From positions 1 through 64,000 of the forward strand of contig NZ_QMIE01000008.1 of the NCBI RefSeq assembly GCF_007625075.1: a stretch of 64,000 nt of DNA, read 5' to 3'. The notes under the pieces were generated by a model. It was not told the origin of the DNA and ran no database searches. It saw only the letters and a program-made list of their open reading frames with translations. The DNA comes from Oceanidesulfovibrio indonesiensis (GTDB lineage: Bacteria; Desulfobacterota; Desulfovibrionia; Desulfovibrionales; Desulfovibrionaceae). Made by a program: the position numbers and the translations under genes. Below are positions 9,546-32,691 of this stretch, piece by piece (within the stretch, counting starts at the first letter, position 1; each line of letters opens with the position of its first letter).

Positions 9546-9831
9546 GACGATACCCACGCGTGTCAGAGGGTTGCCGGATTCCACCCAATGTCTACATATT
9601 CTCTATACTGGCGCACGGGGGAAGCGTCAACGCGAGAGGCAATGGTGAAATCGGTGCATGGTCAGTCTGACGAGACGACACTTTCGCCCGAAGCGGACTC
9701 CTGATAACCATGCAGCCCATCAGACTATTGGAAAATGCCCTGTTGATGCATCGCTTCGGAATGAACAATTTTTTTCAAACTGGGAATATGCTTCTACCTT
9801 GATTATTTATCGCGCCGCGCATTCGATATTT

Positions 9832-9954
9832 ATTACTGGGAGCAGCAAATTTTTACATTTTCGCGCCCCAGTTATAAGGACGGCCACGCTCCAGGCGGGG
9901 CCAAGCGGCGAACGCCGCGGAAGCAAGAAGTTAAAATTTCTTGCTCCCGGTAAT
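9832..9954. repeat. Structured repeat element, copy A
   Basis: The arms ATTACTGGGAGCAGCAAATT (left) and, as reverse complement, ATTACCGGGAGCAAGAAATT (right) form near-perfect terminal inverted repeats of about 25 bases. Inside are a strict hairpin GCGGCGAACGCCGC (9904-9917) and a GCCCC/GGGGC pairing around GGACGGCCACGCTCCAGGC. A 30-base core is identical to copy B at 32569-32688, while the inner arms differ yet still pair. Looser similarity extends 15-20 bases to each side. It lies in a gene-poor stretch (9546-9992). It may be a miniature inverted-repeat element or a structured RNA. Confidence 0.8.
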
Positions 9955-9992
9955 ATGAACAGCCTGCAACAGTGTTTTTTCAACGGCCAGCC

Positions 9993-32396: not shown

Positions 32397-32568
32397 TTGG
32401 TGTTCCGTTTGTTATGGGCTCAGCCTATCATAAGGGGTGCCGGTTTCCCAATCCTCGGGCAGGCTGTTGACAAACATTCACGTGCTGGGGTTGTCAATAA
32501 AAGTCAGCCCTGCGAGCACAGGAAGTGCTTTTCAGACTTGATCGTTTTCGCCCCACACGATTGAATAC

Positions 32569-32688
32569 ATTACAGGGAGCAGAAAATCCTTTCATTTTCG
32601 CGCTCCAGTAATAAGGACGGCCACGCTCCAGGCGGGGCCACGCGGCGAACGCCGCGGGAACAATAGGATTAATCTTGCTCACAGTAAT
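32569..32688. repeat. Structured repeat element, copy B
   Basis: Second copy of the element at 9832-9954. The core is identical over 30 bases (from ATAAGGACGG through GGCGGGGCCA), and the GCGGCGAACGCCGC hairpin is kept (32642-32655). The terminal arms read ATTACAGGGAGCAGAAAATC and, as reverse complement, ATTACTGTGAGCAAGATTAA. The inner arm is ATCCT/AGGAT here but AAATTTT/AAAATTT in copy A, so pairing is kept while sequence changes. It lies in the stretch 32397-32691, where I see no gene, and ends beside a dehydrogenase fragment. Confidence 0.8.
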
Positions 32689-32691
32689 ATA

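Follow-up and report, generated by a model that had tools for sequence, protein, structure and literature searches.

The repeat unit of pneumococcus (RUP) is a 107-bp sequence without an open reading frame (ORF) that occurs in about 108 intergenic copies, targets TA, and has TA ends (PMC2229807). The Correia/NEMIS elements of Neisseria (~107 to 155 bp) and the ERIC sequences of enterobacteria (127 bp) combine TA termini with a target duplication and a stable fold (PMC2229807; 127 bp from PMC2759123), while CIR, whose mobility is unsettled, has TA termini and inverted-repeat arms that are separate from each other and connected through a linker (PMC2229807). In published drawings of BOX and RUP, the terminal repeats pair with each other (PMC3049150). 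The Desulfovibrionales element described here shares with RUP its small size, intergenic copies, lack of an ORF, TA target, and TA ends; however, the ends of RUP are common to the resident IS630-Spn1, whereas no such partner was found for our element, and in place of the paired terminal repeats of BOX/RUP, its covariation lies in four local hairpins. It resembles Correia/NEMIS and ERIC in size, TA termini, target duplication, and a stable folded form; those elements fold end to end and were described in other bacteria. Like CIR, it has TA termini and separate arms instead of one end-to-end stem, but CIR comprises two arms and a GANTC site, in contrast to four hairpins, a consensus without GANTC, and TA duplication at empty sites. 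Paired extragenic palindromes and solo units recall REPIN/REP-BIME with RAYT, from which the element differs by TA duplication and by the absence of RAYT in its own genus. In size, TA termini, and duplication, it operates like RUP, Correia/NEMIS, and ERIC, and we consider it highly probable that it is a nonautonomous transposon of the MITE type, ~124 bp plus TA, mobilized in trans, inserting at TA, and belonging to a multigenus family in the Desulfovibrionales.

The window (the whole 64,000-nt stretch of the Oceanidesulfovibrio indonesiensis contig that was analyzed) holds two copies of the element (Table 1). In pairwise comparison they are 87% identical over 104 nt, with an identical 30-base core ATAAGGACGGCCACGCTCCAGGCGGGGCCA and an identical GCGGCGAACGCCGC hairpin, and both fold much more stably than dinucleotide shuffles (z of −6.0 and −4.3). 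The two strands alike fall well below shuffles. The two related elements of the original prediction are real. Measured from TA to TA, their left ends lie one base outside the positions first given (9832 and 32569). Copy 2 has decayed: its left TA has become CA, and its 3′ hairpin has a 4-nt deletion and has lost pairing.

Table 1. Features of the two element copies in the window.
Feature	Position	Strand	Evidence
Complete element copy 1, TA to TA	9831..9955	+	Covariance model match 1-126/126, E 4e-33 in window
Copy 1, left TA of target-site duplication	9831..9832	+	Duplication seen at empty/nested sites of sibling copies
Copy 1, right TA of target-site duplication	9954..9955	+	Duplication seen at empty/nested sites of sibling copies
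Copy 1, hairpin 1 (46-nt hairpin of the 5′ end)	9831..9876	+	Consensus fold and covariation; also solo TA-bounded 46-bp unit (L081)
Copy 1, hairpin 2 (GGCC.CGC....GCG.GGCC)	9882..9902	+	Covariation in G006: GGCCCCGC/GCGGGGCC to AACCGCGC/GCGCGGTT
Copy 1, hairpin 3 (GCGGCGAACGCCGC)	9905..9918	+	Pairing in 96% of cells (3 genomes)
Copy 1, hairpin 4 (3′ end hairpin)	9919..9948	+	Double changes in six pairs; also solo 45-bp unit (L080, L088)
Element copy 2, somewhat decayed	32568..32689	+	Covariance model match E 1e-27; alignment
Copy 2, hairpin 1	32568..32613	+	Alignment
Copy 2, hairpin 2 (same sequence as in copy 1)	32619..32639	+	
Copy 2, hairpin 3 (same sequence as in copy 1)	32642..32655	+	

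The description as a two-copy repeat holds within the window only. A pattern derived from the core matched 47 places in the 4.29-Mb genome at up to 3 mismatches (0 for a reversed control pattern), one of which (L075) has the core alone in otherwise unrelated sequence. A covariance model recovered at least 90 copies, mostly intergenic; as 90 counts the copies scored, it is a minimum, the weakest matches being to old or partial copies. The motif TATTACTGGGAGCA, found at both element ends as terminal inverted repeats, occurs 65 times exactly and 109 times with up to one mismatch. In the consensus, TATTACTGGGAGCAGAAAATTCTTACATTTTCGCGCCCCAGTTATAAGGACGGCCACGCTCCAGGCGGGGCCACGCGGCGAACGCCGCGGGAGCAAGAAGTTTAAAATTTCTTGCTCCCAGTAATA, two short GC hairpins lie between self-complementary end hairpins of 45 to 46 bp, each carrying GGGAGC, the end motif, in either orientation; the element (~124 bp plus TA, ~125 bp) contains no transposase ORF and is too short to encode one. 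Hairpins 1 and 4 each also stand alone as TA-bounded units of 45 to 46 bp, and there are hybrids too (L080, L081, L084, L088, L092). Solo TA-bounded hairpins of 44 to 46 bp, located at L080:1983-2027, L081:2073-2118, L088:2060-2104, and L086:2001-2044, may represent the minimal mobile unit of the family. The same genome contains at least one more subfamily, with both end hairpins rewritten around a similar GC core (e.g., L187 and L190 to L192). Separately, three copies (L062, L072, and L052) are broken off within the 3′ hairpin and fused to unrelated sequence.

Insertion was examined by removing the element from the sequence down to a single TA and comparing the joined flanks with intact sites. 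Flanks joined in this way matched without gaps where the element is nested in an older copy (L229; 78 nt, 83%, one TA), in an old copy from its own genome (L073; 37 nt, 81%), and inside an unrelated repeat of the MAG Desulfovibrionaceae bacterium nDJH2bin10 (G006) (L175; 67 nt, 91%), as well as against an empty paralogue (L186 versus L218; 76 nt, 80%, GATAAAA kept). The element therefore inserts at TA and duplicates it, at nested and empty sites alike; an inspection for target-site duplications had been among the checks first proposed. An unrelated nDJH2bin10 repeat (ACTTGCAAAAATAGTGGTTTTTTAACGCCTCCGGCGGCCAAAGGGCTG...CCCTTTGGAATCC) served as the empty-site control; this second dispersed repeat is found at L216:1388-1454, L148:1640-1717, L226:5310-5391, and L213. 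A/T is enriched at the first and third positions to either side of the TA (91 copies, orientations mixed), and among oriented copies of the own genome the outer base is W in 39 of 43 on the left versus 25 of 39 on the right. Pairs of copies ~98% identical sit at different loci, which argues for recent movement. In the sister species (G001), the orthologous genes flanking the copy 1 site match, with no element match reported between them, and that genome has its own set of copies, 76% identical to those of O. indonesiensis. The element is thus short and lacks a transposase ORF, has terminal inverted repeats and a target-site duplication, and is present in many dispersed copies whose insertions differ between species. 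Of the properties tested for a MITE, only an autonomous partner with matching ends was not found, in searches with small contigs masked. Of the identities first suggested, the miniature mobile element is the one upheld, through high copy number, insertions specific to a species, and TA duplication at both nested and empty sites.

Conservation of the fold was assessed in three genomes that together supplied 46 distinct copies, with the structure drawn from one of the sequences. In the four local hairpins, 91.3% of cells are paired, against 86.4 in shuffled and at most 51 in slid controls; double-change cells number 105 against 43.6, and the covariation score is 0.182 against 0.106, and in each case 0 of 500 shuffles reached the observed value. 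A weaker signal comes from counting the pairs in which a double change occurs at all (15 against 11.7, reached by 44 of 500 shuffles). Kinship among the copies inflates all these figures, yet the slid controls keep that kinship and score far lower. Even within one genome, the ends of hairpin 4 change from GGGAGC..GCTCCC to TTTGAGC..GCTCAAA. An end-to-end cruciform was rejected as the conserved structure: pairing of the terminal repeats (14 pairs, one on a gap column) scored 0.077 against 0.080 when shuffled. The structure first proposed is thus borne out on other, local helices. The compensating inner arm (AAATTTT/AAAATTT in one copy and ATCCT/AGGAT in the other) on which that proposal rested is not conserved and is at chance level for an AT-rich loop; in 43 copies of the own genome the longest complementary run in these segments is 3 to 8 nt, usually 5, and random AT-rich sequence yields such a run ~42% of the time. 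The view that a folded DNA or RNA is under selection, deduced from those arms, loses that support and gains another in the cross-genus covariation of the four hairpins, which we infer to be under selection. The fold, and not the terminal repeat, appears to be what is recognized or tolerated. Searching with the core and a covariance model, as had been proposed, thus brought up more copies and significant covariation, and the finding outlived the attempt to refute it.

The covariance model counted at least 90 copies in O. indonesiensis (G000), 12 in the complete, single-contig genome of its sister species, at least 80 in nDJH2bin10, and 14 in a genome from another family of the Desulfovibrionales (G024). 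Across the order, matches with E up to 0.001 occurred in 16 of 348 genomes and 12 of 59 genera, counts that are lower bounds under strict filters; on inspection ~10 of the 16 were convincing (~8 beyond the sister species and nDJH2bin10). The four-hairpin layout recurs with other sequences in further genera (G083, G095, G211, and G338), while matches in G172, G205, and G292 were rejected as resembling terminators or chance. Two genomes of genus g19 (G197 and G206; L254, L255, and L263) have the same four-hairpin order at several places in unrelated sequence (GCTAGTACGCTGTAAC...; GCGGCGGCGAAGCCGCCG; GCAAAGCAAAAACC...), which may represent a remote branch or a family that arose by convergence. 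G024 carries a relative of 149 to 150 bp that ends in TA and differs in its inner hairpins (L141, L149, L152, L156, and L160), which was probably active recently, since its copies are closely alike. The exact core was absent from other genomes of the genome contig collection, viral contigs contained no exact match to core or end motif, and plasmids and phages gave no match; no Rfam family scored above the gathering threshold, and the literature searched contained no description of the element in Desulfovibrio.

The searches turned up no transposase that shares the element ends, contigs of <3 kb being read as N. Under the same masking, DDE_3 (Tc1/mariner-IS630) had 0 matches in G000, G001, G006, and G024, and an IS630 DDE_3 was rejected as partner because it is absent from all four main carriers. 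IS5-type DDE_Tnp_1_2 was likewise rejected (absent from G000, G006, and G024, with one weak subthreshold match in G001), no transposase bounded by terminal inverted repeats was present in the nDJH2bin10 stretches, and in the search for ISAzo13 the control itself matched nowhere. With contigs of <3 kb masked, a mobilizer could be hidden as a collapsed multicopy IS in the small contigs of draft genomes; counting against this, no contig of known length terminates in any of the 65 exact end motifs, and the G001 assembly consists of one contig. The element has the TA target with duplication of the IS630/Tc1-mariner group and lacks its resident DDE_3 sharing the ends, at least outside the masked contigs, and it has neither the Y1 gene in the genome (G000 and G001) nor the missing target-site duplication expected of REPIN/RAYT. 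As a defining feature of each was thus looked for and not found, we file it under neither.

A REP/REPIN-type element, moved by RAYT or another Y1 HUH transposase acting on single-stranded hairpins, would account for extragenic palindromes with two end hairpins around a spacer, for solo hairpins, and for covariation that lies in the structure and not in the terminal repeat. However, Y1_Tnp (RAYT) is absent from both the own genome and the complete sister genome, the Y1 genes of relatives are not flanked by element ends, and RAYT/IS200 was rejected as mobilizer on these grounds; the units are 45 bp long and not short GTAG-tagged palindromes, and TA is duplicated. Y1 transposition is not known to make a target duplication. 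We regard this origin as very improbable. Scarcely more probable is a dispersed family of regulatory or structured noncoding RNA genes kept for a cellular function. Strong cross-genus covariation is what such a family would show, as are stems that vary less than loops (4.7% versus 8.4% in the own genome), and G-U departures are slightly more numerous than A-C ones (87 versus 58 cells), which leans slightly toward RNA or one strand without deciding the matter; the surplus is small when changes common to a subfamily are discounted. Against it stand the lack of an Rfam match, the patchy distribution over the order, the nested insertions, and the absence of any preference for position or orientation. 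In a simple gene call, 45 copies of the own genome fell into 23 tandem, 10 divergent, and 7 convergent gaps, with 2 inside an ORF and 3 at an edge, so that 40 of 42 placeable copies lie between genes; background gaps in the window are 15 tandem, 5 divergent, and 3 convergent, and in tandem gaps 14 copies have the same orientation and 9 the opposite. Gap types and orientation thus look like background, which speaks against a cis-regulatory niche, and a regulatory role in cis has no positional support.

A different question is whether, in the same mobile element, the compensatory changes arose by quasi-palindrome correction (template switching) and not by selection on structure. Near-perfect palindromes are good substrates for template switching, and the hairpins of the element are near-perfect palindromes of 30 to 46 bp; two copies (L148 and L151) even carry an end hairpin with its usual mismatch repaired. 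Yet the T4-T mismatch of hairpin 1 persists in G000, G001, G006, and G095, as does the A14 bulge. Correction alone should erase such imperfections, which speaks against it as the sole cause; we think this account, a serious rival where the covariation is concerned, rather unlikely.

For the MITE-type transposon mobilized in trans, we propose the following course. The element enters a TA in an A/T-rich surround and duplicates it. A transposase recognizing the element ends would act in trans, most likely a TA-specific DDE enzyme in the style of Tc1/mariner-IS630 that may have been lost, may be collapsed in the masked small contigs, or may be too diverged for detection. The fold would probably be kept because the folded end is what the transposase or the replication machinery acts on, either extruded or as single-stranded DNA, or, alternatively, because a folded transcript makes insertions tolerable. 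We raise only tentatively, as a somewhat doubtful extension, that this is a lineage of TA transposons whose transposition depends on folded hairpin ends, recognized by structure plus sequence. If true, recognition of the folded end would account both for end hairpins whose sequence changes from lineage to lineage without loss of pairing and for the behavior of lone 45-bp hairpins as complete units.

The usual explanation of small TA-flanked repeats is that they are MITEs, read through their terminal repeats, whereas here the pairing of the terminal repeats drifts and four local hairpins are retained from genus to genus. In sulfate reducers, the family provides a repeat of recent mobility that is absent from Rfam and can confuse both assembly and the annotation of noncoding RNAs. 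As a large and divergent family with nested insertions and solo hairpins, it allows a direct test of whether structure drives transposition.
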